Part shown: in pieces, positions 3,676 through 54,127 of the stretch
Layout of the letters: every line of letters begins with the position of its first letter
Numbering within the stretch: position 1 is the first letter of the stretch
Source of the DNA: Saxidomus purpurata
Taxonomy: Eukaryota > Mollusca > Bivalvia > Venerida > Veneridae
NCBI GenBank assembly: GCA_022818135.1
Contig: JAFMSR010000012.1
Span: 7,121,570-7,185,569 of the forward strand
Length of the DNA stretch: 64,000 nt
Direction of reading: 5' to 3'
Program-made: the position numbers and the translations under genes
Notes under the pieces: model-generated
The model's input: only the letters and a program-made list of their open reading frames with translations
The model's database searches: none
What the model was told of the DNA's origin: nothing

Positions 3676-4312
3676 TAATCAAAGGACTGAAAGTGCTGGA
3701 GGATCGATTGTTTTGAACAACACAGTCTGCACACATACATGTGTTAATATCAGGACAACACAGATTGTACACATCACATGTGTGAATATCAGGACAACCC
3801 TTGCACGAGTAAACTGGAGACACAACTGTCCACAAATTTTGACCTTTTACCATTTGTATAAACTTTACTTTTGAGATAGGAACCCATGTGCTTACATTTT
3901 GCATGCAGTGACTATGTTCAACTACACTATGAAGTATTAAGCTGTGAATGGTAACTGAGAAATGGATTCCGAAAAAACTGAACTGAAAATTCATAGTTTG
4001 AACAACTTTTAATGTCATTCAAAAGTTATGGGATATGCTCCTAGGGTTGATTGTATTGCGCCAATTCATTGATTCGAATTTAACGTCGCACTCAACAGCT
4101 AAGGTCATATTGTAACTTCCAGCTTTCATGGAGGAGAAAGACCCTGGGTGCCATTTCTGGCATTATTTCAGTCACGAGCGGGCACCTGGGTAGAACCTAG
4201 ATAGCTCCCAGACATAAAAGAATTCGACCCAAGTAGGGCACGAACCTACAGCGGTGAGGGACAAGTAAACATCAGTCAGTGACCTTAACCACTCGGCCAC
4301 AGATGTCATTGT
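3676..4312 (-). mobile_element. long tRNA-Ser-like SINE (family B) with tandem tail
   Basis: On the minus strand the element starts with a tRNA-like head. The A-box region reads TGGCCGAGTGGTTAAGG (about 4,283-4,300) and the B-box AGGTTCGTGCCC (about 4,235-4,247), as in serine tRNA genes. A conserved body follows, with CTCCATGAAAGC and GTGCGACGTTAAA blocks. The 3' part is unusually long and contains two or three copies of a roughly 35-bp unit with ACACATGTATGTGTG. It ends in the AGTCCTTTGATT block shared by every copy. The layout resembles molluscan V-SINE-type elements such as RUDI; that assignment is from memory and unverified. A fuller plus-strand copy lies at 49,772-50,352. Confidence 0.75.
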
Positions 4313-5480: not shown

Positions 5481-5512
<32 letters not shown>

Positions 5513-5691
5513 AAAAAGAGGGGGACAGGAGATTAAAAAAAAATAGTTTTTTTGGGGGGGGGGGTTTTTTGGGGTTTTGGCGACTTTGTGACGCAAGAAA
5601 GCAAGAGGGAGCAATGTAATGGGGGATTTGAATGACATTTAAAAGTTGTTCAAACCATAAATTTTCAGTTCAGTTTTGTCAAAATCCATTT

Positions 5692-5753
<62 letters not shown>

Positions 5754-5906
5754 GTTTGGGGGGGTTGGGGGGGGGGGGGGGGGGTCGGGCCCCCTCCCCC
5801 CCCCCCCCCCTTTTTTTTTTTTTTTTTTTGGGGGGGGGGGGGGGGGGCGCCCCCCCCCCCCCCCCCCCCCGGGGGGGGGGGGGGGGGGCCCCCCCCCCCC
5901 CCCCCC

Positions 5907-5949
<43 letters not shown>

Positions 5950-6345
5950 TTCCTCCTTCCCCCCCCCCCACCCCCCCCTGGGGGGGGCCCCCCCCTTTTT
6001 TTTTTTATTTTTTAGTTTTTCAACCCAAATTTTTGTTTGTTTGCTTCAGTTACGATTCACAGCTTAATTTTTAATACTTCATAGGGTAGTTGAACATTGT
6101 CACTGAATGACATAATGTAAGCACATAGGTTCCTATCTCAAAAGTAAAGTTTACACAAATGGTGAAAGGTCAAAATTTGTGGACAGTTGTGTCTCCAGTT
6201 TATAACTTTACTCGTGCAAGGGTTGTCCTGATATTCACACATGTATGTGTACAGTCTATGTTGTCCTGATATTTACACATGTATGTGTGCAGACTGTGTT
6301 GTTCAGAGACAATCGATCCTCCAGCACTTTCAGTCCTTTGATTAT
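5225..6345 (+). mobile_element. family B element fragment, broken by homopolymer blocks
   Basis: Body blocks of family B are recognisable at 5,225-5,330 (CTTCCTCCTCCATGAAAGC and the GCGACGTTAA block), 5,625-5,692, and 6,040-6,345 (the tandem ACACATGTATGTGTG tail and the AGTCCTTTGATT end). Between them lie homopolymer runs at 5,481-5,590 and 5,693-6,040 that are absent from the matching copies at 37,905-38,335 and 52,664-53,165. The tRNA head is missing, as in those composite copies. Confidence 0.7.
5481..6010. repeat. poly-G/poly-C/poly-T blocks, suspected artefact
   Basis: Runs of G up to about 60 nt alternate with runs of C and T, cutting through a repeat whose other copies are contiguous. 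Glycine- and proline-only open frames here (5,632-6,074 on either strand) are meaningless. Confidence 0.75.
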
Positions 6346-8832: not shown

Positions 8833-9121
8833 TCATTTAAAAGGAAGGGTTTACATGCAGCTCACCTAAACATTCAGCATTTTTACCAAAGTTTGATGAA
8901 ATTAAATATCAGCTATCTCGAAAGGAAAACAGTACTGATATCTTCAGTTTTTGTGAGACTTTTCTGAGCAAACGGCTGATTCTAAATTAATGATAGCAGA
9001 CTATGTAATTGAAAGAAAAGATAGAACTGCGAAATCTGGTGGTGGAATTTTGATTCATATACTCAGTTCATTGCCATATACACGGCGTCGACAGTATAGA
9101 AGCAATGTGGATTGAGATATA
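8833..9121 (+). pseudogene. LINE ORF2 endonuclease, N-terminal half
   Basis: Reads 'AHLNIQHF', 'KFDEIKYQL', 'DIFSFCETFL' and 'SGGGILIHI' in order, the start of an AP-like endonuclease of CR1/L2-type ORF2; the E in 'CETFL' is the expected metal-binding position. Frameshifts lie near 8,885, 8,970 and 9,080. The frame ends in 'MWIEI' at the left edge of the inserted LTR element and resumes at 9,523. Confidence 0.7.
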
Positions 9122-9168
9122 TGTCACAGTTCGGACTTAGTTCACAATTGGTGAGAATATGTGTAAGC

Positions 9169-9241
9169 GGCCCGGTAGCTCAGTCGGTAGAGCATTCGCC
9201 CTGTAAGCGAAAGGCCCCGGGTTCGAGCCCCGGTCTGGCTG
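9169..9241 (+). tRNA. tRNA-like gene inside 5' LTR, anticodon TGT (Thr-type)
   Basis: Folds as a 73-nt cloverleaf. The acceptor stem GGCCCGG pairs with TCTGGCT (one C:T mismatch, two G:T pairs). The D arm is GCTC/GAGC, the anticodon stem TTCGC/GCGAA, the variable loop five bases, and the T stem CCGGG/CCCGG with loop TTCGAGC. The A box TAGCTCAGTCGG and B box GGTTCGAGCCC fit Pol III consensus. The anticodon loop is CCTGTAA, giving TGT, but position 33 is C where tRNAs have U. Together with the acceptor mismatch this argues against a working tRNA and for a retained promoter or RNA structure. A T4 run follows at 9,246-9,249. Confidence 0.8.
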
Positions 9242-9245
9242 CACA

Positions 9246-9249
9246 TTTT
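9246..9249 (+). terminator. Pol III T4 terminator after the tRNA-like gene
   Basis: Four T residues lie five bases past the discriminator base. The matching spot in the 3' LTR has five T (9,499-9,503). Both are minimal Pol III stop signals. Confidence 0.6.
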
Positions 9250-9265
9250 CTCACCCTGTGACATT

Positions 9266-9283
9266 TGGCGCCCAACACGGGAC
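9266..9283 (+). promoter_or_regulatory. primer-binding site, tRNA-Lys type
   Basis: TGGCGCCCAACACGGGAC begins two bases after the 5' LTR. It is complementary to a tRNA 3' end finishing in ...GTTGGGCGCCA, the form of lysine tRNA (CUU). This is the position and kind of site at which LTR elements start minus-strand DNA synthesis. The primer tRNA is different from the threonine-type sequence carried within the LTR. Confidence 0.85.
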
Positions 9284-9337
9284 TGTGACTGGATATATAC
9301 TTCGAGATCATGTTTACCTTGTTCTCTTAACCCGTAC

Positions 9338-9357
9338 GAAATTCGAGGACGAATTTC
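9338..9357 (+). repeat. 8-bp perfect inverted repeat before the polypurine tract
   Basis: GAAATTCG and CGAATTTC are separated by AGGA. The hairpin sits six bases before the purine-rich tract and is one of the few structured parts of the interior. Confidence 0.7.
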
Positions 9358-9362
9358 AATAT

Positions 9363-9374
9363 GGTGGGGGAGTA
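9363..9374 (+). promoter_or_regulatory. polypurine tract
   Basis: GGTGGGGGAGTA sits immediately before the 3' LTR, where plus-strand synthesis would be primed in an LTR retrotransposon. Confidence 0.75.
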
Positions 9375-9517
9375 TGTCACAGTTCGGACTTAGTTCACAA
9401 TTGGGGAGAATATGTGTAAGCGGCCCGGTAGCTCAGTCGGTAGAGCATTCGCCCTGTAAGTGAAAGGCCCCGGGTTCGTGCCCCGGTTAGGCTGCACATT
9501 TTTCTCACCATGTGACA
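9375..9517 (+). repeat. 3' LTR of the TRIM
   Basis: 143 bp, same ends as the 5' LTR. Six substitutions and one extra T separate the two; four of the substitutions fall in the 3' half of the tRNA-like gene. Confidence 0.9.
9422..9494 (+). tRNA. decayed tRNA-like gene inside 3' LTR
   Basis: Same 73-nt fold as the 5' copy. An anticodon-stem C is now T (G:T wobble), the invariant T-loop A58 is T so the B box reads GGTTCGTGCCC, and the acceptor 3' strand is TTAGGCT. It is probably not transcribed or processed as well as the upstream copy. Confidence 0.6.
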
Positions 9518-9522
9518 TTTAC

Positions 9523-9870
9523 ACACAATCAAAACCTTTTTTATTTGGTTTTATTTACCGCCCCCCAAATAGTAGGCGTCAGTGGTGTGATTATTTTTCT
9601 CAGGTGATGGATAAAATTGATAGTCAAAATATAGAATATCACTCAGTCGGCGATTTTAATTTCGAATATATACCAACAAAATTTAAAACTTCATACTGGA
9701 ATGACATAGTTCAGCAATATGGTATAACACAGTTGGTAGACTCTCCTACTCGAGTCTCACAAAAAAGTTCCACTATAATCGATCATTTATATTCCAGTAT
9801 GGCAGATAGAATAACCGAGGTCTTTATTCCATCAAGTCAAAAACTTCTCGGTATATTAATATATCGATAA
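9523..9870 (+). pseudogene. LINE ORF2 endonuclease, C-terminal half
   Basis: Continues the frame split by the TRIM: 'FGFIYRPPN', then 'GDFNFEY' (the GDFN metal and phosphate-binding block) and 'SSTIIDHLY' (the S-x-x-DH catalytic histidine block). These are the diagnostic C-terminal motifs of LINE AP endonucleases. Downstream the frame ends at 9,870, and the reverse transcriptase domain is missing. Residues before 'TQSKPF' belong to the inserted LTR, so the apparent start near 9,460 is false. Confidence 0.75.
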
Positions 9871-10029
9871 AAATCTCAAGTGGGACTTGCAAGTAGAAAC
9901 AGTTTGCAAAAGGCTTAATTCTAAAAAATTTCTTTTTTTATCTAGATGACACTATGAAATTTATGTTTTACAATTCATGTATTATGTAAACGTTTGACTA
10001 CCGCGTAAAAATAAACAATCGCACATCTC

Positions 10030-17930: not shown

Positions 17931-17990
17931 CTTTCCCGGATATGTCGACCGTTCGGCGTAAATCGGCGTTTTTCCTTATTTTTCACACCT

Positions 17991-19034
17991 TTGGCCGAAG
18001 TGGGTCATGTCGCATATCAAAATGTCGAGCTCGGCGCCCACTTTAAGATGGTGCAAGAAAATTCCCGGATATGTCGACCGTTCGGCGTAAATCGGCGTTT
18101 TTCCTTATTTTTCACACCTTTGGCCGAAGTGGGTCATGTCGCATATCAAAATGTCGAGCCCGGCGCCCACTTTAAGATGGTGCAAGAAAATTCCCCGATA
18201 TGTCGAAAACACTTTTAGACCGTTCGGCGTAAATCGGCGTTTTTCCTTATTTTTCACACCTTTGGCCGAAGTGGGTCATGTCGCATATCAAAATGTCGAG
18301 ATCGGCGCCCACTTTAAGATGGTGCAAGAAAATTCCCCGATATGTCGACCGTTCGGCGTAAATCGGCGTTTATCCTTATTTTTCACACCTTTGGCCGAAG
18401 TGGGTCATGTCGCATATCAAAATGTCGAGCTCGGCGCCCACTTTAAGATGGTGCAAGAAAAATCCCGGATATGTCGACCGTTCGGCGTAAATCGGCGTTT
18501 TTCCTTATTTTTCACACCTTTGGCCGAAGTGGGTCATGTCGCATATCAAAATGTCGAGCCCGGCGCCCACTTTAAGATGGTGCAAGAAAATTCCCGGATA
18601 TGTCGACCGTTCGGCGTAAATCGGCGTTTTTCCTTATTTTTCACACCTTTGGCCGAAGTGGGTCATGTCGCATATCAAAATGTCGAGCCCGGCGCCCACT
18701 TTAAGATGGTGCAAGAAAATTCCCGGATATGTCGACCGTTCGGCGTAAATCGGCGTTTTTCCTTATTTTTCACACCTTTGGCCGAAGTGGGTCATGTCGC
18801 ATATCAAAATGTCGAGCTCGGCGCCCACTTTAAGATGGTGCAAGAAAATTCCCGGATATGTCGACCGTTCGGCGTAAATCGGCGTTTTTCCTTATTTTTC
18901 ACACCTTTGGCCGAAGTGGGTCATGTCGCATATCAAAATGTCGAGCTCGGCGCCCACTTTAAGATGGGCAAGAAAATTCCCGGATATGTCGACCGTTCGG
19001 CGTAAATCGGCGTTTTTCCTTATTTTTCACACCT
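17991..19034 (+). repeat. satellite block 0: 8 irregular monomers
   Basis: Order L, P, I, L, P, P, L, L-deleted. The second monomer carries CCCCG and a 13-bp insertion near 18,207-18,219, and the fourth has AAAAATCCC. Irregularities at the left edge are what is expected where homogenisation is weakest. Confidence 0.9.
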
Positions 19035-20581
19035 TTGGCCGAAGTGGGTCATGTCGCATATCAAAATGTCGAGCTCGGCGCCCACTTTAAGATGGTGCAA
19101 GAAAATTCCCGGATATGTCGACCGTTCGGCGTAAATCGGCGTTTTTCCTTATTTTTCACACCTTTGGCCGAAGTGGGTCATGTCGCATATCAAAATGTCG
19201 AGCTCGGCGCCCACTTTAAGATGGTGCAAGAAAATTCCCGGATATGTCGACCGTTCGGCGTAAATCGGCGTTTTTCCTTATTTTTCACACCTTTGGCCGA
19301 AGTGGGTCATGTCGCATATCAAAATGTCGAGCTCGGCGCCCACTTTAAGATGGTGCAAGAAAATTCCCGGATATGTCGACCGTTCGGCGTAAATCGGCGT
19401 TTTTCCTTATTTTTCACACCTTTGGCCGAAGTGGGTCATGTCGCATATCAAAATGTCGAGCTCGGCGCCCACTTTAAGATGGTGCAAGAAAATTCCCGGA
19501 TATGTCGACCGTTCGGCGTAAATCGGCGTTTTTCCTTATTTTTCACACCTTTGGCCGAAGTGGGTCATGTCGCATATCAAAATGTCGAGCTCGGCGCCCA
19601 CTTTAAGATGGTGCAAGAAAATTCCCGGATATGTCGACCGTTCGGCGTAAATCGGCGTTTTTCCTTATTTTTCACACCTTTGGCCGAAGTGGGTCATGTC
19701 GCATATCAAAATGTCGAGCTCGGCGCCCACTTTAAGATGGTGCAAGAAAATTCCCGGATATGTCGACCGTTCGGCGTAAATCGGCGTTTTTCCTTATTTT
19801 TCACACCTTTGGCCGAAGTGGGTCATGTCGCATATCAAAATGTCGAGATCGGCGCCCACTTTAAGATGGTGCAAGAAAATTCCCCGATATGTCGACCGTT
19901 CGGCGTAAATCGGCGTTTATCCTTATTTTTCACACCTTTGGCCGAAGTGGGTCATGTCGCATATCAAAATGTCGAGCTCGGCGCCCACTTTAAGATGGTG
20001 CAAGAAAATTCCCGGATATGTCGACCGTTCGGCGTAAATCGGCGTTTTTCCTTATTTTTCACACCTTTGGCCGAAGTGGGTCATGTCGCATATCAAAATG
20101 TCGAGCCCGGCGCCCACTTTAAGATGGTGCAAGAAAATTCCCGGATATGTCGACCGTTCGGCGTAAATCGGCGTTTTTCCTTATTTTTCACACCTTTGGC
20201 CGAAGTGGGTCATGTCGCATATCAAAATGTCGAGCCCGGCGCCCACTTTAAGATGGTGCAAGAAAATTCCCGGATATGTCGACCGTTCGGCGTAAATCGG
20301 CGTTTTTCCTTATTTTTCACACCTTTGGCCGAAGTGGGTCATGTCGCATATCAAAATGTCGAGCTCGGCGCCCACTTTAAGATGGTGCAAGAAAATTCCC
20401 GGATATGTCGACCGTTCGGCGTAAATCGGCGTTTTTCCTTATTTTTCACACCTTTGGCCGAAGTGGGTCATGTCGCATATCAAAATGTCGAGCTCGGCGC
20501 CCACTTTAAGATGGGCAAGAAAATTCCCGGATATGTCGACCGTTCGGCGTAAATCGGCGTTTTTCCTTATTTTTCACACCT
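19035..20581 (+). repeat. satellite higher-order unit 1, 12-mer
   Basis: 1,547 bp, that is 12 x 129 minus 1. Order L6, I, L, P, P, L, L-deleted. Confidence 0.95.
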
Positions 20582-22128
20582 TTGGCCGAAGTGGGTCATG
20601 TCGCATATCAAAATGTCGAGCTCGGCGCCCACTTTAAGATGGTGCAAGAAAATTCCCGGATATGTCGACCGTTCGGCGTAAATCGGCGTTTTTCCTTATT
20701 TTTCACACCTTTGGCCGAAGTGGGTCATGTCGCATATCAAAATGTCGAGCTCGGCGCCCACTTTAAGATGGTGCAAGAAAATTCCCGGATATGTCGACCG
20801 TTCGGCGTAAATCGGCGTTTTTCCTTATTTTTCACACCTTTGGCCGAAGTGGGTCATGTCGCATATCAAAATGTCGAGCTCGGCGCCCACTTTAAGATGG
20901 TGCAAGAAAATTCCCGGATATGTCGACCGTTCGGCGTAAATCGGCGTTTTTCCTTATTTTTCACACCTTTGGCCGAAGTGGGTCATGTCGCATATCAAAA
21001 TGTCGAGCTCGGCGCCCACTTTAAGATGGTGCAAGAAAATTCCCGGATATGTCGACCGTTCGGCGTAAATCGGCGTTTTTCCTTATTTTTCACACCTTTG
21101 GCCGAAGTGGGTCATGTCGCATATCAAAATGTCGAGCTCGGCGCCCACTTTAAGATGGTGCAAGAAAATTCCCGGATATGTCGACCGTTCGGCGTAAATC
21201 GGCGTTTTTCCTTATTTTTCACACCTTTGGCCGAAGTGGGTCATGTCGCATATCAAAATGTCGAGCTCGGCGCCCACTTTAAGATGGTGCAAGAAAATTC
21301 CCGGATATGTCGACCGTTCGGCGTAAATCGGCGTTTTTCCTTATTTTTCACACCTTTGGCCGAAGTGGGTCATGTCGCATATCAAAATGTCGAGATCGGC
21401 GCCCACTTTAAGATGGTGCAAGAAAATTCCCGGATATGTCGACCGTTCGGCGTAAATCGGCGTTTATCCTTATTTTTCACACCTTTGGCCGAAGTGGGTC
21501 ATGTCGCATATCAAAATGTCGAGCTCGGCGCCCACTTTAAGATGGTGCAAGAAAATTCCCGGATATGTCGACCGTTCGGCGTAAATCGGCGTTTTTCCTT
21601 ATTTTTCACACCTTTGGCCGAAGTGGGTCATGTCGCATATCAAAATGTCGAGCCCGGCGCCCACTTTAAGATGGTGCAAGAAAATTCCCGGATATGTCGA
21701 CCGTTCGGCGTAAATCGGCGTTTTTCCTTATTTTTCACACCTTTGGCCGAAGTGGGTCATGTCGCATATCAAAATGTCGAGCCCGGCGCCCACTTTAAGA
21801 TGGTGCAAGAAAATTCCCGGATATGTCGACCGTTCGGCGTAAATCGGCGTTTTTCCTTATTTTTCACACCTTTGGCCGAAGTGGGTCATGTCGCATATCA
21901 AAATGTCGAGCTCGGCGCCCACTTTAAGATGGTGCAAGAAAATTCCCGGATATGTCGACCGTTCGGCGTAAATCGGCGTTTTTCCTTATTTTTCACACCT
22001 TTGGCCGAAGTGGGTCATGTCGCATATCAAAATGTCGAGCTCGGCGCCCACTTTAAGATGGGCAAGAAAATTCCCGGATATGTCGACCGTTCGGCGTAAA
22101 TCGGCGTTTTTCCTTATTTTTCACACCT
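20582..22128 (+). repeat. satellite higher-order unit 2, 12-mer
   Basis: 1,547 bp, same order as unit 1. Its I monomer (near 21,394) keeps GAGATC and TTTATCC but has the ordinary CCCGG, a mosaic of I and L states that suggests gene conversion or a reversion. Confidence 0.95.
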
Positions 22129-24062
22129 TTGGCCGAAGTGGGTCATGTCGCATATCAAAATGTCGAGCTCGGCGCCCACTTTAAGATGGTGCAAGAAAAT
22201 TCCCGGATATGTCGACCGTTCGGCGTAAATCGGCGTTTTTCCTTATTTTTCACACCTTTGGCCGAAGTGGGTCATGTCGCATATCAAAATGTCGAGCTCG
22301 GCGCCCACTTTAAGATGGTGCAAGAAAATTCCCGGATATGTCGACCGTTCGGCGTAAATCGGCGTTTTTCCTTATTTTTCACACCTTTGGCCGAAGTGGG
22401 TCATGTCGCATATCAAAATGTCGAGCTCGGCGCCCACTTTAAGATGGTGCAAGAAAATTCCCGGATATGTCGACCGTTCGGCGTAAATCGGCGTTTTTCC
22501 TTATTTTTCACACCTTTGGCCGAAGTGGGTCATGTCGCATATCAAAATGTCGAGCTCGGCGCCCACTTTAAGATGGTGCAAGAAAATTCCCGGATATGTC
22601 GACCGTTCGGCGTAAATCGGCGTTTTTCCTTATTTTTCACACCTTTGGCCGAAGTGGGTCATGTCGCATATCAAAATGTCGAGCTCGGCGCCCACTTTAA
22701 GATGGTGCAAGAAAATTCCCGGATATGTCGACCGTTCGGCGTAAATCGGCGTTTTTCCTTATTTTTCACACCTTTGGCCGAAGTGGGTCATGTCGCATAT
22801 CAAAATGTCGAGCTCGGCGCCCACTTTAAGATGGTGCAAGAAAATTCCCGGATATGTCGACCGTTCGGCGTAAATCGGCGTTTTTCCTTATTTTTCACAC
22901 CTTTGGCCGAAGTGGGTCATGTCGCATATCAAAATGTCGAGATCGGCGCCCACTTTAAGATGGTGCAAGAAAATTCCCCGATATGTCGACCGTTCGGCGT
23001 AAATCGGCGTTTATCCTTATTTTTCACACCTTTGGCCGAAGTGGGTCATGTCGCATATCAAAATGTCGAGCTCGGCGCCCACTTTAAGATGGTGCAAGAA
23101 AATTCCCGGATATGTCGACCGTTCGGCGTAAATCGGCGTTTTTCCTTATTTTTCACACCTTTGGCCGAAGTGGGTCATGTCGCATATCAAAATGTCGAGC
23201 TCGGCGCCCACTTTAAGATGGTGCAAGAAAATTCCCGGATATGTCGACCGTTCGGCGTAAATCGGCGTTTTTCCTTATTTTTCACACCTTTGGCCGAAGT
23301 GGGTCATGTCGCATATCAAAATGTCGAGATCGGCGCCCACTTTAAGATGGTGCAAGAAAATTCCCCGATATGTCGACCGTTCGGCGTAAATCGGCGTTTA
23401 TCCTTATTTTTCACACCTTTGGCCGAAGTGGGTCATGTCGCATATCAAAATGTCGAGCTCGGCGCCCACTTTAAGATGGTGCAAGAAAATTCCCGGATAT
23501 GTCGACCGTTCGGCGTAAATCGGCGTTTTTCCTTATTTTTCACACCTTTGGCCGAAGTGGGTCATGTCGCATATCAAAATGTCGAGCCCGGCGCCCACTT
23601 TAAGATGGTGCAAGAAAATTCCCGGATATGTCGACCGTTCGGCGTAAATCGGCGTTTTTCCTTATTTTTCACACCTTTGGCCGAAGTGGGTCATGTCGCA
23701 TATCAAAATGTCGAGCCCGGCGCCCACTTTAAGATGGTGCAAGAAAATTCCCGGATATGTCGACCGTTCGGCGTAAATCGGCGTTTTTCCTTATTTTTCA
23801 CACCTTTGGCCGAAGTGGGTCATGTCGCATATCAAAATGTCGAGCTCGGCGCCCACTTTAAGATGGTGCAAGAAAATTCCCGGATATGTCGACCGTTCGG
23901 CGTAAATCGGCGTTTTTCCTTATTTTTCACACCTTTGGCCGAAGTGGGTCATGTCGCATATCAAAATGTCGAGCTCGGCGCCCACTTTAAGATGGGCAAG
24001 AAAATTCCCGGATATGTCGACCGTTCGGCGTAAATCGGCGTTTTTCCTTATTTTTCACACCT
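22129..24062 (+). repeat. satellite higher-order unit 3, 15-mer
   Basis: 1,934 bp, that is 15 x 129 minus 1. Order L6, I, L, L, I, L, P, P, L, L-deleted, which equals the 12-mer with a three-monomer block duplicated around the I type. Confidence 0.95.
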
Positions 24063-25996
24063 TTGGCCGAAGTGGGTCATGTCGCATATCAAAATGTCGA
24101 GCTCGGCGCCCACTTTAAGATGGTGCAAGAAAATTCCCGGATATGTCGACCGTTCGGCGTAAATCGGCGTTTTTCCTTATTTTTCACACCTTTGGCCGAA
24201 GTGGGTCATGTCGCATATCAAAATGTCGAGCTCGGCGCCCACTTTAAGATGGTGCAAGAAAATTCCCGGATATGTCGACCGTTCGGCGTAAATCGGCGTT
24301 TTTCCTTATTTTTCACACCTTTGGCCGAAGTGGGTCATGTCGCATATCAAAATGTCGAGCTCGGCGCCCACTTTAAGATGGTGCAAGAAAATTCCCGGAT
24401 ATGTCGACCGTTCGGCGTAAATCGGCGTTTTTCCTTATTTTTCACACCTTTGGCCGAAGTGGGTCATGTCGCATATCAAAATGTCGAGCTCGGCGCCCAC
24501 TTTAAGATGGTGCAAGAAAATTCCCGGATATGTCGACCGTTCGGCGTAAATCGGCGTTTTTCCTTATTTTTCACACCTTTGGCCGAAGTGGGTCATGTCG
24601 CATATCAAAATGTCGAGCTCGGCGCCCACTTTAAGATGGTGCAAGAAAATTCCCGGATATGTCGACCGTTCGGCGTAAATCGGCGTTTTTCCTTATTTTT
24701 CACACCTTTGGCCGAAGTGGGTCATGTCGCATATCAAAATGTCGAGCTCGGCGCCCACTTTAAGATGGTGCAAGAAAATTCCCGGATATGTCGACCGTTC
24801 GGCGTAAATCGGCGTTTTTCCTTATTTTTCACACCTTTGGCCGAAGTGGGTCATGTCGCATATCAAAATGTCGAGATCGGCGCCCACTTTAAGATGGTGC
24901 AAGAAAATTCCCCGATATGTCGACCGTTCGGCGTAAATCGGCGTTTATCCTTATTTTTCACACCTTTGGCCGAAGTGGGTCATGTCGCATATCAAAATGT
25001 CGAGCTCGGCGCCCACTTTAAGATGGTGCAAGAAAATTCCCGGATATGTCGACCGTTCGGCGTAAATCGGCGTTTTTCCTTATTTTTCACACCTTTGGCC
25101 GAAGTGGGTCATGTCGCATATCAAAATGTCGAGCTCGGCGCCCACTTTAAGATGGTGCAAGAAAATTCCCGGATATGTCGACCGTTCGGCGTAAATCGGC
25201 GTTTTTCCTTATTTTTCACACCTTTGGCCGAAGTGGGTCATGTCGCATATCAAAATGTCGAGATCGGCGCCCACTTTAAGATGGTGCAAGAAAATTCCCC
25301 GATATGTCGACCGTTCGGCGTAAATCGGCGTTTATCCTTATTTTTCACACCTTTGGCCGAAGTGGGTCATGTCGCATATCAAAATGTCGAGCTCGGCGCC
25401 CACTTTAAGATGGTGCAAGAAAATTCCCGGATATGTCGACCGTTCGGCGTAAATCGGCGTTTTTCCTTATTTTTCACACCTTTGGCCGAAGTGGGTCATG
25501 TCGCATATCAAAATGTCGAGCCCGGCGCCCACTTTAAGATGGTGCAAGAAAATTCCCGGATATGTCGACCGTTCGGCGTAAATCGGCGTTTTTCCTTATT
25601 TTTCACACCTTTGGCCGAAGTGGGTCATGTCGCATATCAAAATGTCGAGCCCGGCGCCCACTTTAAGATGGTGCAAGAAAATTCCCGGATATGTCGACCG
25701 TTCGGCGTAAATCGGCGTTTTTCCTTATTTTTCACACCTTTGGCCGAAGTGGGTCATGTCGCATATCAAAATGTCGAGCTCGGCGCCCACTTTAAGATGG
25801 TGCAAGAAAATTCCCGGATATGTCGACCGTTCGGCGTAAATCGGCGTTTTTCCTTATTTTTCACACCTTTGGCCGAAGTGGGTCATGTCGCATATCAAAA
25901 TGTCGAGCTCGGCGCCCACTTTAAGATGGGCAAGAAAATTCCCGGATATGTCGACCGTTCGGCGTAAATCGGCGTTTTTCCTTATTTTTCACACCT
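24063..25996 (+). repeat. satellite higher-order unit 4, 15-mer
   Basis: 1,934 bp with the same monomer order as unit 3. Confidence 0.95.
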
Positions 25997-27930
25997 TTGG
26001 CCGAAGTGGGTCATGTCGCATATCAAAATGTCGAGCTCGGCGCCCACTTTAAGATGGTGCAAGAAAATTCCCGGATATGTCGACCGTTCGGCGTAAATCG
26101 GCGTTTTTCCTTATTTTTCACACCTTTGGCCGAAGTGGGTCATGTCGCATATCAAAATGTCGAGCTCGGCGCCCACTTTAAGATGGTGCAAGAAAATTCC
26201 CGGATATGTCGACCGTTCGGCGTAAATCGGCGTTTTTCCTTATTTTTCACACCTTTGGCCGAAGTGGGTCATGTCGCATATCAAAATGTCGAGCTCGGCG
26301 CCCACTTTAAGATGGTGCAAGAAAATTCCCGGATATGTCGACCGTTCGGCGTAAATCGGCGTTTTTCCTTATTTTTCACACCTTTGGCCGAAGTGGGTCA
26401 TGTCGCATATCAAAATGTCGAGCTCGGCGCCCACTTTAAGATGGTGCAAGAAAATTCCCGGATATGTCGACCGTTCGGCGTAAATCGGCGTTTTTCCTTA
26501 TTTTTCACACCTTTGGCCGAAGTGGGTCATGTCGCATATCAAAATGTCGAGCTCGGCGCCCACTTTAAGATGGTGCAAGAAAATTCCCGGATATGTCGAC
26601 CGTTCGGCGTAAATCGGCGTTTTTCCTTATTTTTCACACCTTTGGCCGAAGTGGGTCATGTCGCATATCAAAATGTCGAGCTCGGCGCCCACTTTAAGAT
26701 GGTGCAAGAAAATTCCCGGATATGTCGACCGTTCGGCGTAAATCGGCGTTTTTCCTTATTTTTCACACCTTTGGCCGAAGTGGGTCATGTCGCATATCAA
26801 AATGTCGAGATCGGCGCCCACTTTAAGATGGTGCAAGAAAATTCCCCGATATGTCGACCGTTCGGCGTAAATCGGCGTTTATCCTTATTTTTCACACCTT
26901 TGGCCGAAGTGGGTCATGTCGCATATCAAAATGTCGAGCTCGGCGCCCACTTTAAGATGGTGCAAGAAAATTCCCGGATATGTCGACCGTTCGGCGTAAA
27001 TCGGCGTTTTTCCTTATTTTTCACACCTTTGGCCGAAGTGGGTCATGTCGCATATCAAAATGTCGAGCTCGGCGCCCACTTTAAGATGGTGCAAGAAAAT
27101 TCCCGGATATGTCGACCGTTCGGCGTAAATCGGCGTTTTTCCTTATTTTTCACACCTTTGGCCGAAGTGGGTCATGTCGCATATCAAAATGTCGAGATCG
27201 GCGCCCACTTTAAGATGGTGCAAGAAAATTCCCCGATATGTCGACCGTTCGGCGTAAATCGGCGTTTATCCTTATTTTTCACACCTTTGGCCGAAGTGGG
27301 TCATGTCGCATATCAAAATGTCGAGCTCGGCGCCCACTTTAAGATGGTGCAAGAAAATTCCCGGATATGTCGACCGTTCGGCGTAAATCGGCGTTTTTCC
27401 TTATTTTTCACACCTTTGGCCGAAGTGGGTCATGTCGCATATCAAAATGTCGAGCCCGGCGCCCACTTTAAGATGGTGCAAGAAAATTCCCGGATATGTC
27501 GACCGTTCGGCGTAAATCGGCGTTTTTCCTTATTTTTCACACCTTTGGCCGAAGTGGGTCATGTCGCATATCAAAATGTCGAGCCCGGCGCCCACTTTAA
27601 GATGGTGCAAGAAAATTCCCGGATATGTCGACCGTTCGGCGTAAATCGGCGTTTTTCCTTATTTTTCACACCTTTGGCCGAAGTGGGTCATGTCGCATAT
27701 CAAAATGTCGAGCTCGGCGCCCACTTTAAGATGGTGCAAGAAAATTCCCGGATATGTCGACCGTTCGGCGTAAATCGGCGTTTTTCCTTATTTTTCACAC
27801 CTTTGGCCGAAGTGGGTCATGTCGCATATCAAAATGTCGAGCTCGGCGCCCACTTTAAGATGGGCAAGAAAATTCCCGGATATGTCGACCGTTCGGCGTA
27901 AATCGGCGTTTTTCCTTATTTTTCACACCT
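25997..27930 (+). repeat. satellite higher-order unit 5, 15-mer
   Basis: 1,934 bp with the same monomer order as units 3 and 4. Confidence 0.95.
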
Positions 27931-30122
27931 TTGGCCGAAGTGGGTCATGTCGCATATCAAAATGTCGAGCTCGGCGCCCACTTTAAGATGGTGCAAGAAA
28001 ATTCCCGGATATGTCGACCGTTCGGCGTAAATCGGCGTTTTTCCTTATTTTTCACACCTTTGGCCGAAGTGGGTCATGTCGCATATCAAAATGTCGAGCT
28101 CGGCGCCCACTTTAAGATGGTGCAAGAAAATTCCCGGATATGTCGACCGTTCGGCGTAAATCGGCGTTTTTCCTTATTTTTCACACCTTTGGCCGAAGTG
28201 GGTCATGTCGCATATCAAAATGTCGAGCTCGGCGCCCACTTTAAGATGGTGCAAGAAAATTCCCGGATATGTCGACCGTTCGGCGTAAATCGGCGTTTTT
28301 CCTTATTTTTCACACCTTTGGCCGAAGTGGGTCATGTCGCATATCAAAATGTCGAGCTCGGCGCCCACTTTAAGATGGTGCAAGAAAATTCCCGGATATG
28401 TCGACCGTTCGGCGTAAATCGGCGTTTTTCCTTATTTTTCACACCTTTGGCCGAAGTGGGTCATGTCGCATATCAAAATGTCGAGCTCGGCGCCCACTTT
28501 AAGATGGTGCAAGAAAATTCCCGGATATGTCGACCGTTCGGCGTAAATCGGCGTTTTTCCTTATTTTTCACACCTTTGGCCGAAGTGGGTCATGTCGCAT
28601 ATCAAAATGTCGAGCTCGGCGCCCACTTTAAGATGGTGCAAGAAAATTCCCGGATATGTCGACCGTTCGGCGTAAATCGGCGTTTTTCCTTATTTTTCAC
28701 ACCTTTGGCCGAAGTGGGTCATGTCGCATATCAAAATGTCGAGCTCGGCGCCCACTTTAAGATGGTGCAAGAAAATTCCCGGATATGTCGACCGTTCGGC
28801 GTAAATCGGCGTTTTTCCTTATTTTTCACACCTTTGGCCGAAGTGGGTCATGTCGCATATCAAAATGTCGAGCTCGGCGCCCACTTTAAGATGGTGCAAG
28901 AAAATTCCCGGATATGTCGACCGTTCGGCGTAAATCGGCGTTTTTCCTTATTTTTCACACCTTTGGCCGAAGTGGGTCATGTCGCATATCAAAATGTCGA
29001 GATCGGCGCCCACTTTAAGATGGTGCAAGAAAATTCCCCGATATGTCGACCGTTCGGCGTAAATCGGCGTTTATCCTTATTTTTCACACCTTTGGCCGAA
29101 GTGGGTCATGTCGCATATCAAAATGTCGAGCTCGGCGCCCACTTTAAGATGGTGCAAGAAAATTCCCGGATATGTCGACCGTTCGGCGTAAATCGGCGTT
29201 TTTCCTTATTTTTCACACCTTTGGCCGAAGTGGGTCATGTCGCATATCAAAATGTCGAGCTCGGCGCCCACTTTAAGATGGTGCAAGAAAATTCCCGGAT
29301 ATGTCGACCGTTCGGCGTAAATCGGCGTTTTTCCTTATTTTTCACACCTTTGGCCGAAGTGGGTCATGTCGCATATCAAAATGTCGAGATCGGCGCCCAC
29401 TTTAAGATGGTGCAAGAAAATTCCCCGATATGTCGACCGTTCGGCGTAAATCGGCGTTTATCCTTATTTTTCACACCTTTGGCCGAAGTGGGTCATGTCG
29501 CATATCAAAATGTCGAGCTCGGCGCCCACTTTAAGATGGTGCAAGAAAATTCCCGGATATGTCGACCGTTCGGCGTAAATCGGCGTTTTTCCTTATTTTT
29601 CACACCTTTGGCCGAAGTGGGTCATGTCGCATATCAAAATGTCGAGCCCGGCGCCCACTTTAAGATGGTGCAAGAAAATTCCCGGATATGTCGACCGTTC
29701 GGCGTAAATCGGCGTTTTTCCTTATTTTTCACACCTTTGGCCGAAGTGGGTCATGTCGCATATCAAAATGTCGAGCCCGGCGCCCACTTTAAGATGGTGC
29801 AAGAAAATTCCCGGATATGTCGACCGTTCGGCGTAAATCGGCGTTTTTCCTTATTTTTCACACCTTTGGCCGAAGTGGGTCATGTCGCATATCAAAATGT
29901 CGAGCTCGGCGCCCACTTTAAGATGGTGCAAGAAAATTCCCGGATATGTCGACCGTTCGGCGTAAATCGGCGTTTTTCCTTATTTTTCACACCTTTGGCC
30001 GAAGTGGGTCATGTCGCATATCAAAATGTCGAGCTCGGCGCCCACTTTAAGATGGGCAAGAAAATTCCCGGATATGTCGACCGTTCGGCGTAAATCGGCG
30101 TTTTTCCTTATTTTTCACACCT
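27931..30122 (+). repeat. satellite higher-order unit 6, 17-mer
   Basis: 2,192 bp, that is 17 x 129 minus 1. The leading run has eight L monomers where the 15-mers have six, and the rest is identical in order. Confidence 0.95.
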
Positions 30123-32057
30123 TTGGCCGAAGTGGGTCATGTCGCATATCAAAATGTCGAGCTCGGCGCCCACTTTAAGATGGTGCAAGAAAATTCCCGG
30201 ATATGTCGACCGTTCGGCGTAAATCGGCGTTTTTCCTTATTTTTCACACCTTTGGCCGAAGTGGGTCATGTCGCATATCAAAATGTCGAGCTCGGCGCCC
30301 ACTTTAAGATGGTGCAAGAAAATTCCCGGATATGTCGACCGTTCGGCGTAAATCGGCGTTTTTCCTTATTTTTCACACCTTTGGCCGAAGTGGGTCATGT
30401 CGCATATCAAAATGTCGAGCTCGGCGCCCACTTTAAGATGGTGCAAGAAAATTCCCGGATATGTCGACCGTTCGGCGTAAATCGGCGTTTTTCCTTATTT
30501 TTCACACCTTTGGCCGAAGTGGGTCATGTCGCATATCAAAATGTCGAGCTCGGCGCCCACTTTAAGATGGTGCAAGAAAATTCCCGGATATGTCGACCGT
30601 TCGGCGTAAATCGGCGTTTTTCCTTATTTTTCACACCTTTGGCCGAAGTGGGTCATGTCGCATATCAAAATGTCGAGCTCGGCGCCCACTTTAAGATGGT
30701 GCAAGAAAATTCCCGGATATGTCGACCGTTCGGCGTAAATCGGCGTTTTTCCTTATTTTTCACACCTTTGGCCGAAGTGGGTCATGTCGCATATCAAAAT
30801 GTCGAGCTCGGCGCCCACTTTAAGATGGTGCAAGAAAATTCCCGGATATGTCGACCGTTCGGCGTAAATCGGCGTTTTTCCTTATTTTTCACACCTTTGG
30901 CCGAAGTGGGTCATGTCGCATATCAAAATGTCGAGATCGGCGCCCACTTTAAGATGGTGCAAGAAAATTCCCCGATATGTCGACCGTTCGGCGTAAATCG
31001 GCGTTTATCCTTATTTTTCACACCTTTGGCCGAAGTGGGTCATGTCGCATATCAAAATGTCGAGCTCGGCGCCCACTTTAAGATGGTGCAAGAAAATTCC
31101 CGGATATGTCGACCGTTCGGCGTAAATCGGCGTTTTTCCTTATTTTTCACACCTTTGGCCGAAGTGGGTCATGTCGCATATCAAAATGTCGAGCTCGGCG
31201 CCCACTTTAAGATGGTGCAAGAAAATTCCCGGATATGTCGACCGTTCGGCGTAAATCGGCGTTTTTCCTTATTTTTCACACCTTTGGCCGAAGTGGGTCA
31301 TGTCGCATATCAAAATGTCGAGATCGGCGCCCACTTTAAGATGGTGCAAGAAAATTCCCCGATATGTCGACCGTTCGGCGTAAATCGGCGTTTATCCTTA
31401 TTTTTCACACCTTTGGCCGAAGTGGGTCATGTCGCATATCAAAATGTCGAGCTCGGCGCCCACTTTAAGATGGTGCAAGAAAATTCCCGGATATGTCGAC
31501 CGTTCGGCGTAAATCGGCGTTTTTCCTTATTTTTCACACCTTTGGCCGAAGTGGGTCATGTCGCATATCAAAATGTCGAGCCCGGCGCCCACTTTAAGAT
31601 GGTGCAAGAAAATTCCCGGATATGTCGACCGTTCGGCGTAAATCGGCGTTTTTCCTTATTTTTCACACCTTTGGCCGAAGTGGGTCATGTCGCATATCAA
31701 AATGTCGAGCCCGGCGCCCACTTTAAGATGGTGCAAGAAAATTCCCGGATATGTCGACCGTTCGGCGTAAATCGGCGTTTTTCCTTATTTTTCACACCTT
31801 TGGCCGAAGTGGGTCATGTCGCATATCAAAATGTCGAGCTCGGCGCCCACTTTAAGATGGTGCAAGAAAATTCCCGGATATGTCGACCGTTCGGCGTAAA
31901 TCGGCGTTTTTCCTTTTTTTTTCACACCTTTGGCCGAAGTGGGTCATGTCGCATATCAAAATGTCGAGCTCGGCGCCCACTTTAAGATGGGCAAGAAAAT
32001 TCCCGGATATGTCGACCGTTCGGCGTAAATCGGCGTTTTTCCTTATTTTTCACACCT
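30123..32057 (+). repeat. satellite higher-order unit 7, 15-mer with one extra T
   Basis: 1,935 bp. Same order as the 15-mers. A T-run at 31,914-31,922 replaces TTATTTTTC and adds one base, offsetting the usual deletion. Confidence 0.95.
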
Positions 32058-33306
32058 TTGGCCGAAGTGGGTCATGTCGCATATCAAAATGTCGAGCTCG
32101 GCGCCCACTTTAAGATGGTGCAAGAAAATTCCCGGATATGTCGACCGTTCGGCGTAAATCGGCGTTTTTCCTTATTTTTCACACCTTTGGCCGAAGTGGG
32201 TCATGTCGCATATCAAAATGTCGAGCTCGGCGCCCACTTTAAGATGGTGCAAGAAAATTCCCGGATATGTCGACCGTTCGGCGTAAATCGGCGTTTTTCC
32301 TTATTTTTCACACCTTTGGCCGAAGTGGGTCATGTCGCATATCAAAATGTCGAGCTCGGCGCCCACTTTAAGATGGTGCAAGAAAATTCCCGGATATGTC
32401 GACCGTTCGGCGTAAATCGGCGTTTTTCCTTATTTTTCACACCTTTGGCCGAAGTGGGTCATGTCGCATATCAAAATGTCGAGCTCGGCGCCCACTTTAA
32501 GATGGTGCAAGAAAATTCCCGGATATGTCGACCGTTCGGCGTAAATCGGCGTTTTTCCTTATTTTTCACACCTTTGGCCGAAGTGGGTCATGTCGCATAT
32601 CAAAATGTCGAGCTCGGCGCCCACTTTAAGATGGTGCAAGAAAATTCCCGGATATGTCGACCGTTCGGCGTAAATCGGCGTTTTTCCTTATTTTTCACAC
32701 CTTTGGCCGAAGTGGGTCATGTCGCATATCAAAATGTCGAGCTCGGCGCCCACTTTAAGATGGTGCAAGAAAATTCCCGGATATGTCGACCGTTCGGCGT
32801 AAATCGGCGTTTTTCCTTATTTTTCACACCTTTGGCCGAAGTGGGTCATGTCGCATATCAAAATGTCGAGCTCGGCGCCCACTTTAAGATGGTGCAAGAA
32901 AATTCCCGGATATGTCGACCGTTCGGCGTAAATCGGCGTTTTTCCTTATTTTTCACACCTTTGGCCGAAGTGGGTCATGTCGCATATCAAAATGTCGAGC
33001 TCGGCGCCCACTTTAAGATGGTGCAAGAAAATTCCCGGATATGTCGACCGTTCGGCGTAAATCGGCGTTTTTCCTTATTTTTCACACCTTTGGCCGAAGT
33101 GGGTCATGTCGCATATCAAAATGTCGAGCTCGGCGCCCACTTTAAGATGGTGCAAGAAAATTCCCGGATATGTCGACCGTTCGGCGTAAATCGGCGTTTT
33201 TCCTTATTTTTCACACCTTTGGCCGAAGTGGGTCATGTCGCATATCAAAATGTCGAGCTCGGCGCCCACTTTAAGATGGTGCAAGAAAATTCCCGGATAT
33301 GTCGAC
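32058..33306 (+). repeat. satellite tail, about 10 identical L monomers
   Basis: Only L-type monomers, with no I, P or deletion marker. The array stops inside a monomer after GTCGAC at 33,306. Confidence 0.95.
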
Positions 33307-36404: not shown

Positions 36405-38335
36405 TTTTGGATCAATTGATTTATTCAATCGAATCCAATGTTAACAGAGTATAGCTTCCTTACGGCCGAACTCTTTACATACAAACAAGTAGTTCCATAT
36501 ATTCCGTTGTTACGAATTATACTGTCCTCTGTTTGAAAAATTATATAGTAAAAGATCTAAATAATATCAAAATATTTCAAAATAGCATAATATTATATTG
36601 TTGTTTTTCTTATAATTTGTAACTTAAATCAAGGTATCTGTTCTGTATAGAACTATTTCCCTACGCGGTTTTTATCGTCAGACCGGTGTGAAATGAGAAA
36701 TGTAAGACCCGTGAAATACGTAATCGCTACACCGGATACACTAAATTTAGTGTTTCCGCGAGAGCGCGTTTACTGCGGTTTTGACGCACTCATTTTGTCA
36801 ATGACGTAACAGAAAAAGCAAAGAGTGTCTTCTATGACGCAATTTAAATGTGTATGATCAAATTGCTACAAAAACAACATTTCAAAACCTCTCAAAACGC
36901 TTCGAAATGCAAGATAAATTGTTGATAAAATACGCTTCCGGTATGTCTAATTTTGACCCTATTCCGTCGTCGTCTGATTTCGGATCAACCCGCAATTTGT
37001 TCCATTGCGTTTTTGTGTGTGTTGATTCCTATGATACCGTCATCATAGATCGTAGACGCACAACAAGAGATGGTCGACGAACCTTAAATAGGGGAAACAA
37101 AAACGTCTTTCTGAGTGATTTTAATGTTAATATTGTAGTCATTTCGATCAGACTTGTCACTTTTGAAAGGGGTTTAAATGTGCCAAATAATATCCATGTC
37201 TATGGTTGAATGCACTTATGAAAAATTCGCTTTGTGGACAAATTTGACTTTTGAGATGCAGTGACAAAATGGAAAGCATCCAAAGCATCCAAAGCATCTG
37301 TTGTCTTGCCAACCCTTTGCTTATCCACCATTTTGTGATGTATCACATGCAGTTTTACAGAAGTAAACTGAATAAATAGAGGATAATTGTTGGTTTCGGT
37401 GTAAGATCATGTTATAATTTCACCGAGTGAGCACCAAAAGTGATATTTTCACGAGTGGCGCAGCCACGAGTGAAAATAACTTTTGGTGTTCACGAGTGAA
37501 ATTAACGTGATATTACACCGATACCAACAATTTTTCTGTTTATTTTATGGTTACAACTCTCCTTTTATTGAGTTTGTTTCTACAAAATATCGAAAATCGC
37601 GGGAAACGTCACCAGAAACATAGCGCAAATGACGTCATTTAAACGACGTCATAGTCGCATGGTTTCCAGCATTAATTACGCTCGGTATCCTTTTTGACGT
37701 AAATCCGGGTTAAAGATTGCAAAACAGTGAAAAATAAAAATGGTAATCCACTGTTTCAAAACTGTGGATTATCACTTTTATTTCACTGAGAAAACTCTAT
37801 AATTCACTGAAAAACATAGAATAAAACTTCTTTAACATATAGTCATGCCTTTTATTTTTTAACAATAAAGGGTTCGACCCTCGGAATTTCTAAATGACCC
37901 CTAAATTCTGATACAGGGTCTTCCTCCTCCATGAAAGCCGGAAGTTGCAATATGACCTTAGCTGTTGGGTGCGACGTTAAAACCGAATTAATTCGCATTA
38001 TACCATCAACTATAAATTGTCAAAATCAATTTCTCAGTTACGATTCACAGCTTTATACTTTCATAGGGTAGTTAAACATAGTCACTGAATGACATAATGT
38101 AAGCACATGGGTTCCTATCTCAAAAGTAAAGTTTACACAAATGGTGAAAGGTCAAAATTTGTGGACAGTTGTGTCTCCAGTTTATAACTTTACTCGTGCA
38201 AGGGTTGTCCTGATATTCACACATGTATGTGTACAGTCTATGTTGTCCTGATATTTACACATGTATGTGTGCAGACTGTGTTGTTCAGAGACAATCGATA
38301 CTCCAGCACTTTCAGTCCTTTGATTGTATTTTCTG
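36405..38335 (+). mobile_element. composite element C, short internally deleted form
   Basis: Begins with a palindrome based on TTGGATC...ATCCAA (36,409-36,440) and ends with a family B-derived tail (37,905-38,335) closing in AGTCCTTTGATT. It is collinear with the reverse complement of the long form at 52,664-55,757 but lacks about 1.5 kb; the junction is near 37,004 (CCA|TTGCG). A family E MITE has inserted at 37,377-37,819. Neither form is coding as it stands. The open frame 36,850-37,209 spans the deletion junction and is not a gene. Confidence 0.7.
37377..37819 (+). mobile_element. MITE family E, copy with target duplication
   Basis: 443 bp flanked by AATAAA at 37,371-37,376 and 37,820-37,825. 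The homologous site in the long C element (reverse strand near 53,230-53,245) has a single AATAAA and no insertion, so limits and duplication are defined by an empty site. The left 160 bp form a long foldback: the TTGTTGGTTTCGGTGTAA region against the ACACCGATACCAACAA region, with a GTGGC/GCCAC centre. A TGACGTCA palindrome lies at 37,630-37,637. Non-coding. Confidence 0.85.
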
Positions 38336-46463: not shown

Positions 46464-46925
46464 AGTCATATAACCTGATTATTTATTCTAATGATACAGG
46501 AAATAATTTAGGGTTGCCACAACCTAAGTTTATTTTTTAAGTATTTACGGTAACTTTGTGCATGCGCAGTAGTCGAGATTATGTCAACGTGCATGATGAT
46601 TTATGTTGTTAAAATTTTATTTAGATACACGTCTTTCGATATGTTATGTAGTGTTTAACATTATAATTACTCGTTTATTTGCATTTTGATGGCTAGTCAT
46701 ATAACCTGATTATTTATTCTAATGATACAGGAAATAATTTAGGGTTGCCACAACCTAAGTTTATTTTATAAGTATTTACGGTAACTTTGTGCATGCGCAG
46801 TAGTCGAGATTATGTCAACGTGCATGATGATTTATGTTGTTAAAATTTTATTTAGATACACGTCTTTCGATATGTTATGTAGTGTTTAACATTATAATTA
46901 CTCGTTTATTTGCATTTTGATGGCT
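46464..46925 (+). repeat. 231-bp tandem duplication
   Basis: Copies 46,464-46,694 and 46,695-46,925 are almost identical, with one difference seen in a T-run. Recent segmental duplication; the unit has no frame. Confidence 0.95.
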
Positions 46926-52660: not shown

Positions 52661-54127
52661 TAAAGGACTGAAAGTGCTGCAGGATCGATTGTCTCTGAAC
52701 AACACAGTCTGCACAGATACATTTGTAAATATCAGGACAACATAGACTGTTCACATACATGTGTCAATATCAGGACAACCCTTGCACGAGTAAAGTTATA
52801 AACTGGAGACACAACTGTCCGCAAATTTAGACCTTTCACCATTTGTGTAAACTTTACTTTTGAGATAGGAACCCATGTGCTTACATTATGTCATTCAGTG
52901 ACTATGTTCAACTACCCTATGAAGTATTAAGCTGTGAATCGTAACTGAGAAATGGATTTTGACATAACTGAACTGAAAATTTATGGTTTGAACAACTTTT
53001 AATGTCATTCAAAAGTTATGGGATATGCCCATAAAGATTGATTGTATTATGCCAATTAATTCGCATTTAACGTTGCACCCAACAGCTAAGGTCATATTGC
53101 AACTTCCGGCTTTCATGGAGGAGGAAGACCCTGGGTGCCAATTGCCTGTATCAGAATTTAGGGGTCATTTAGAAACTCCGAGGGTCATACCCATTTGTTG
53201 TAAAAAAATAAAAGGCATGACTATGTGTTGAAGAAGTTTTATTCAGTTTACTTCTGTAAAACTGCATGTGATACATCACAAAATGGTGGGTAATCAAAGG
53301 GTTGGCAAGACAACAGGTGTTTCTCTTTGGATGCTTTCCATTTTGTCACTGCATCTCAAAAGTCAAATTTGTCCACAAAGCGAATTTTTCATAAGTGCAT
53401 TAAACTTGGATATTATTTGGCACACTTAAACCCCTTTCAATAGTGACAGTCTGATCGAAATGACTACAAAATGATCATTAAAATCACTCAGAAAGACGTT
53501 TTTGTTTCCCCTACTAAGGTTCGTCGACCATCTCTTGTTGTGTGTCTACGATCTATGATGACGGTATCATTAGAATCAACACACACAAAAACGCAATGTT
53601 ACAGATAGACTGGCATCAGTCGTTAAAGTCCTCATGTTTTGTCTGAACATTTTACAACAACACAATTTCTCCTTCCCTTGACTCTAACGACTGGACAAAT
53701 GCAGGATTGTGCCTGGTTCTATAATTGCCATGAAATAAGGAATCATTGAAGAAGTTTCCATGATATAATGTGACTTTGATTGACTTCTGTAGCTATTTAA
53801 CATTCATTTGTCATAAAACAGAAATCTCTATACCACCTGGCATGCAAATAGATGAATCTAGATATTGAAAATAAAACTGACCAGTACATTTATACCCAGA
53901 TAATAAATACATTCTATTTATTTGTCATAAATGTAACATGACTCACGATTTTGTCTCTGTATACAAAGAGCAGAAAAATTATGTTATATTAAACCATAAA
54001 CAACGCGGGAATCGATATGCTGTAAACATGACGTCATATTGCGCCGCATGACGTTAAATGAGCGTTCGCGTAGAAAATAAAGCTTTGCATTTATTCACCT
54101 TTTGTAATATCTGGTCATGTTAGAATC

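Follow-up and report, generated by a model that had tools for sequence, protein, structure and literature searches.

The element at positions 9122-9517 of the window (the whole stretch of 64,000 nucleotides analysed here) is most likely a copy of a recently active, non-autonomous miniature LTR retrotransposon (TRIM) of the Helenus type, which would be transcribed by Pol III from a tRNA domain in its LTRs, primed by tRNA-Lys and mobilised by the enzymes of a Gypsy element. It has the anatomy of a retrotransposon, its family integrates with 4-bp target site duplications (TSDs) and has moved recently, and both the A box and the B box are kept in most sampled copies.

The element is complete, with an LTR-internal-LTR structure that covers 396 bp on the forward strand (Table 1). 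The two LTRs differ by six substitutions and one 1-nt indel, that is, 7 differences over 143 aligned positions; both start with TGTCACAG, and they end with CTGTGACA and ATGTGACA, respectively. A primer-binding site and a polypurine tract were both located between the LTRs by position and sequence, and the primer site was provisionally assigned to the Lys type from the 3' ends of animal tRNA-Lys. In each LTR, ARAGORN predicted a tRNA-Thr(tgt), and both tRNA domains scored above the RF00005 cut-off of 29 bits in Rfam; the name A box for the motif at 9176-9187 follows general usage. The sequence-only reading, which had proposed a TRIM with LTRs of 142/143 nt, a lysine-type primer site, a polypurine tract and a tRNA-like gene within each LTR, was borne out, with the lysine type of the primer site as a provisional assignment.

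Table 1. Features of the element and of its insertion site, with positions in the window.
Feature	Position	Strand	Basis
Target site duplication, left copy TATA	9118..9121	.	Sequence; 4-bp TSD family-wide; LINE-like frame restored
5' LTR, 142 nt	9122..9263	+	Direct repeat with 9375-9517; same boundaries in genomic copies
Left arm flanking the tRNA domain	9150..9165	+	Predicted pairing with 9240-9255 in the 5' LTR RNA fold
tRNA-Thr(UGU)-like domain, 5' LTR	9169..9242	+	ARAGORN; RF00005, 58.7 bits
A box TAGCTCAGTCGG	9176..9187	+	Identical letters in 79/83 LTRs
B box GGTTCGAGCCC	9220..9230	+	Identical letters in 73/83 LTRs
T-run TTTT, 5' LTR; candidate Pol III terminator (putative role)	9246..9249	+	Sequence
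Internal region, 111 nt; no room for a protein gene	9264..9374	+	Sequence; copy comparison
Primer-binding site, presumed Lys type, TGGCGCCCAACACGGGAC	9266..9283	+	Form in 1/51 internal regions (window copy only)
Polypurine tract GGTGGGGGAGTA	9363..9374	+	ATGGTGGGGGAGTA in 39/51 internal regions
3' LTR, 143 nt	9375..9517	+	Direct repeat
tRNA-Thr(UGU)-like domain, 3' LTR	9422..9495	+	ARAGORN; RF00005, 50.4 bits
T-run TTTTT, 3' LTR	9499..9503	+	Sequence
Right copy of the target site duplication, TTTA (one letter unlike TATA)	9518..9521	.	Sequence; flank comparison

TRIMs with a tRNA in the LTR were named Helenus (TRIMp3) by Kojima in 2024 (PMC10886601), and the tRNA-in-LTR design is therefore not new. 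Helenus has been described from six animal phyla, fungi and a plant, with 51 families in five pteriomorph orders of bivalves, and its animal members are mobilised by Gypsy (PMC10886601). According to this description, Helenus elements are TRIMs between 311 and 1263 bp long, whose LTRs contain A and B boxes derived from a tRNA; they have a polypurine tract, a 4-bp TSD in animals and a primer site that corresponds to a tRNA 3' end, which is that of tRNA-Lys in some bivalve families. LTRs resembling tRNA-Thr are among those described from bivalves, where seven families could encode this tRNA, and tandem arrays are reported for zebrafish LTR-11_DR (PMC10886601). At 396 bp and with two LTRs, the window element falls below the limit of 1000 bp used for short elements in Kojima's screening step, its LTRs contain tRNA-derived sequences with A and B boxes (as identified by ARAGORN, Rfam and box counts), and 4-bp TSDs were found in the sampled family. 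Membership in Helenus is thus supported by structure and TSD, with the published families compared by description only. In the available text of that description, we found no account of T-run conservation, within-family primer-site variation or mixed arrays; the word "terminator" appears there a single time, in connection with Cassandra, whereas "termination", "hairpin" and "inverted" are absent (PMC10886601).

The comparison with the plant element Cassandra made in the sequence-only reading is apt; both are TRIMs with a Pol III gene as the LTR promoter, a role that is presumed for the window element. The Cassandra transcript is described as extending from the 5S domain of the 5' LTR to that of the 3' LTR, and its two ends as sharing an 18-bp duplication (PMC10886601), and the question raised earlier of how a Pol III transcript could span from LTR to LTR thus has a published precedent in plants. 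Cassandra also forms long LTR/internal arrays (PMC7215508), but it is found in plants, carries 5S rRNA instead of a tRNA and has a Met primer site (PMC10853983). Membership in Cassandra was rejected, as the two tRNA domains were the sole Rfam matches at gathering cut-offs in the window and 5S rRNA was not among them. Ajax of nemerteans is likewise a TRIM whose LTR includes the sequence of a Pol III small RNA, but this is a 5S rRNA fragment, the primer site is that of tRNA-Leu, and the TSD is 5 bp long (PMC10886601). The biv-TRIM elements of bivalves are also TRIMs with tandem LTR/internal arrays; they differ in having terminal repeats of 202-218 bp, as compared to 142/143 nt here, which excludes membership, an internal domain of 77-80 bp and no unambiguous primer site, and the available text mentions no tRNA gene in the repeats (PMC6934838). 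A tRNA-derived SINE, which has no LTRs and is mobilised by a LINE, was ruled out by the LTRs, the primer site, the polypurine tract and the 4-bp TSD.

We searched the host genome (1,134,997,084 bases in 4232 contigs) with the 396-bp element as the query. From the 2218 first-look candidates, 40 were scored, which yielded 60 hits; these are located within 48 loci (30 and 18 from two retrievals), all of which were examined. Twelve of the 48 loci shared both flanks with another locus and were merged, leaving 36; 38 rows were tabulated, of which five were omitted because the outer LTR was truncated or only a fragment was present, so that 33 insertions with intact outer LTRs remained. The sampled loci are those that match the window copy best, with young and similar copies over-represented, and the conservation figures given below are therefore biased upwards. 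The search for full copies recovered near-identical complete elements repeatedly, and the LTR pair is therefore not due to chance. Within the 48 loci and the window, to which this result is limited, the tRNA domain is almost confined to the LTRs: 136 of 141 tRNA-domain matches were inside LTR matches, and the remaining five were pieces of 13-24 nt, two of which represent one place read twice (L020, L048). No exact match to a 25-base segment of this domain was obtained in viral_contigs or genome_contigs.

In the sampled set, the LTR pairs recur as units flanked by TSDs and not as unrelated insertions, and the TRIM reading has within this sample withstood the refuting conditions that had been set for it. 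Perfect 4-bp TSDs were identified in 18 of the 33 sampled insertions; in four, including the window copy, three of the four letters match, and in 11 fewer do, so that 15 insertions are without a perfect TSD. In a control in which the left flank of one insertion was compared to the right flank of another, only 6 of 1056 comparisons gave a perfect 4-bp match. A perfect 5-bp target duplication, the length proposed earlier, was not found in any of the 33 insertions, and the actual length is 4 bp. If one 4-bp copy of the target site is kept and the window insertion is removed, a LINE-endonuclease-like reading frame, assigned to a LINE by eye from the translation, is continuous through the junction. 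The surrounding region, 8900-9900, appears by eye to be a decayed LINE, the endonuclease-like frame of which is whole at the empty site. A Pfam scan of the frame at 9460-9870, which spans the right flank, identified no family.

Among the 25 simple LTR-internal-LTR copies in the sampled set, seven have identical LTRs, which indicates that the family has been active recently; with its 7 LTR differences, the window copy is among the older sampled copies. Since the copies are so young, letter conservation in the LTRs is weak evidence of constraint, and the frequencies of minor letters in the sampled LTRs (1.9% upstream of the tRNA, 0.94% inside it and 0.76% downstream) should be read accordingly.

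In the mechanism that we favour for the Helenus-type element, the tRNA-like domain would act as an internal Pol III promoter, with transcription starting in the 5' LTR, close to where the tRNA begins. Pol III might sometimes read past the T-run of the 5' LTR and stop at the T-run of the 3' LTR, in which case the tRNA domain of about 80 nt could serve as the R repeat for strand transfer. Reverse transcription would be primed by the host tRNA-Lys, and the enzymes would be provided by an autonomous LTR element, probably of the Gypsy type. We infer that the domain serves as a promoter, rather than as a source of charged tRNA or as a primer. The best ungapped match to the complement of the primer site within the domain covers only 10 of 18 positions, and the LTR tRNA is thus not its own primer. 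A run of at least five Ts is present 3' of the promoter in 72 of the 83 sampled LTRs, with four Ts in 8 and a shorter run in 3, so that Pol III would mostly stop there and produce a short tRNA-like RNA and not the full template, which counts against the favoured mechanism.

The early stop that Pol III would make at the T-run inside the LTR also speaks for transcription by Pol II, from a weak promoter of the element itself or by read-through from the host, with the tRNA domain as a passenger that is kept for RNA structure or packaging, or by recent common descent. The predicted folds are relevant here, since in its energy fold the LTR forms a long hairpin that carries the tRNA domain at the tip. 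Such a hairpin instead of a cloverleaf was obtained for the whole 5' LTR and for the four commonest LTR sequences. The fold of the 5' LTR had an energy of -59.9 kcal/mol (z -5.0), and none of 200 shuffles were as good, as compared to -46.8 kcal/mol (z -1.2) for the 3' LTR, which is not unusual (26 of 200 shuffles as good) and keeps three cloverleaf-like arms. In the commonest LTR sequence, the stretches flanking the tRNA are predicted to pair with each other to an extent equalled by 9 of 2000 letter shuffles, or by 41 of 2000 if the terminal 8 nt are left out, and a hairpin formed by these arms is suggestive only. It may be added in favour of Pol II that the sampled copies are little diverged, so that their conservation says little about selection. 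However, the letters of the A box are intact in 79 and those of the B box in 73 of the 83 sampled LTRs, and for Cassandra, which is related in design, transcription is described as beginning and ending within the 5S domains (PMC10886601). Taken together, we consider transcription by Pol II rather unlikely.

It is much less probable that the LTRs are true tRNA-Thr genes which have multiplied by retrotransposition and contribute to the tRNA pool of the cell. ARAGORN identified tRNA-Thr(tgt) in 81 of the 83 sampled LTRs, and the seven bivalve families reported as able to encode tRNA-Thr point in the same direction (PMC10886601), but the acceptor stem in the 5' LTR, as read by eye, contains one C-U mismatch along with two G-U pairs, a hairpin is predicted both for the whole 5' LTR and for the four commonest LTR sequences, with three cloverleaf-like arms kept in the 3' LTR of the window copy, and a functional tRNA was considered unlikely by Kojima (PMC10886601). 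That the structure arose by chance or local tandem duplication, or from a SINE duplicated twice, with no retrotransposon involved, has a negligible probability: tandem arrays of the LTR/internal unit do occur in 7 of the 33 insertions, but LTR-internal-LTR units with a primer site and a polypurine tract are located at unrelated sites, with perfect 4-bp TSDs at 18 of the 33.

The seven arrays contain two or three internal regions each, and the units of one array are often unlike each other. Perfect 4-bp TSDs surround four of them (L004, L021, L023, L024) and are absent from three (L005, L033, L038). Seven of the ten loci with more than one internal region contain more than one form of the primer site; without L031, which represents separate insertions, this is the case for six of nine arrays, in two of which (L005 and L021) the forms are one substitution apart. 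In L004, a single perfect 4-bp TSD encloses units whose primer sites are of two clearly distinct types, and in L021 a single perfect 4-bp TSD encloses units whose types differ by one letter.

Three forms of the primer site account for most of the 51 internal regions, namely TGGCGCCCAACATGGGAC (31), TGGCGCCCAACGTGGGGC (6) and TGGCGCCCAACGTGGGAC (5); nine others, including the form in the window copy, were found once each, and one of the nine is artefactual, the site having been excised with a shift of one base. The form TGGCGCCCAACGTGGGGC presumably matches the 3' end of a common animal tRNA-Lys. We compared pairs of variable columns in the internal region, using 8 of 10 such columns, as two that adjoin a gap were omitted. 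When a primer-site column was paired with another column, all four letter combinations were observed in 8 of 12 cases, as compared to 1 of 15 for pairs of other columns, with several of the four-combination pairs due to one or two sequences only and with more power in the primer-site columns because of their higher counts of minor letters. The single pair of primer-site columns also displayed all four combinations. The letters of the primer site thus vary independently of their surroundings, which fits a rewriting of the site by the tRNA that primes synthesis; alternatively, templates may have recombined to give this pattern.

A joint reading, which we put forward tentatively and consider doubtful as a whole, is that Helenus arrays may be assembled from several RNA templates in the course of reverse transcription or integration, that the primer sites may be written by one of two tRNA-Lys isoacceptors, and that Pol III may skip the first T-run to produce the genomic RNA, with the tRNA as the R repeat. 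The use of several templates is suggested by L004 and L021, in which a single perfect TSD surrounds mixed primer-site types; alternatively, new copies may have recombined into an old insertion. Host tRNA-Lys isoacceptors ending in GTCCCATGTTGGGCG and GCCCCACGTTGGGCG, if both are present, would support primer-site types that are written by the primer.

Elsewhere in the window, ARAGORN predicted a tRNA-Pro at 5829-5901, which was not counted as a gene because it is located in a G/C homopolymer stretch; long runs of G and C extend over 5481-5996 and are probably a sequencing or assembly artefact. Pfam identified no family for any of the 10 stop-to-stop open reading frames searched, out of 29 with at least 110 amino acids, and no host gene is therefore named. 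A 15.4-kb array at 17933-33306 has 119 copies of a 129-bp unit (99% matches); the length of the unit is divisible by three, and on the forward strand the array is crossed by frames of 304 to 744 codons without a stop. A 231-bp unit is present in two direct tandem copies at 46464-46925 (99% matches). A repeat of 38-39 bp was recognized by eye in about two tandem copies each at 3717-3798, 6222-6302, 38204-38284 and 52699-52779, in both orientations, and may be part of a dispersed mobile element.

A recently active TRIM with a tRNA promoter in a 1.1-Gb genome provides a direct test case for how a full template could arise from LTRs that each contain a putative promoter followed by its own terminator. 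In such genomes the counts of tRNA genes may be inflated, as one intact copy gives two "tRNA-Thr" predictions and an array gives more. The known range of Helenus would widen if the host is placed outside the pteriomorph bivalves and the other listed lineages.
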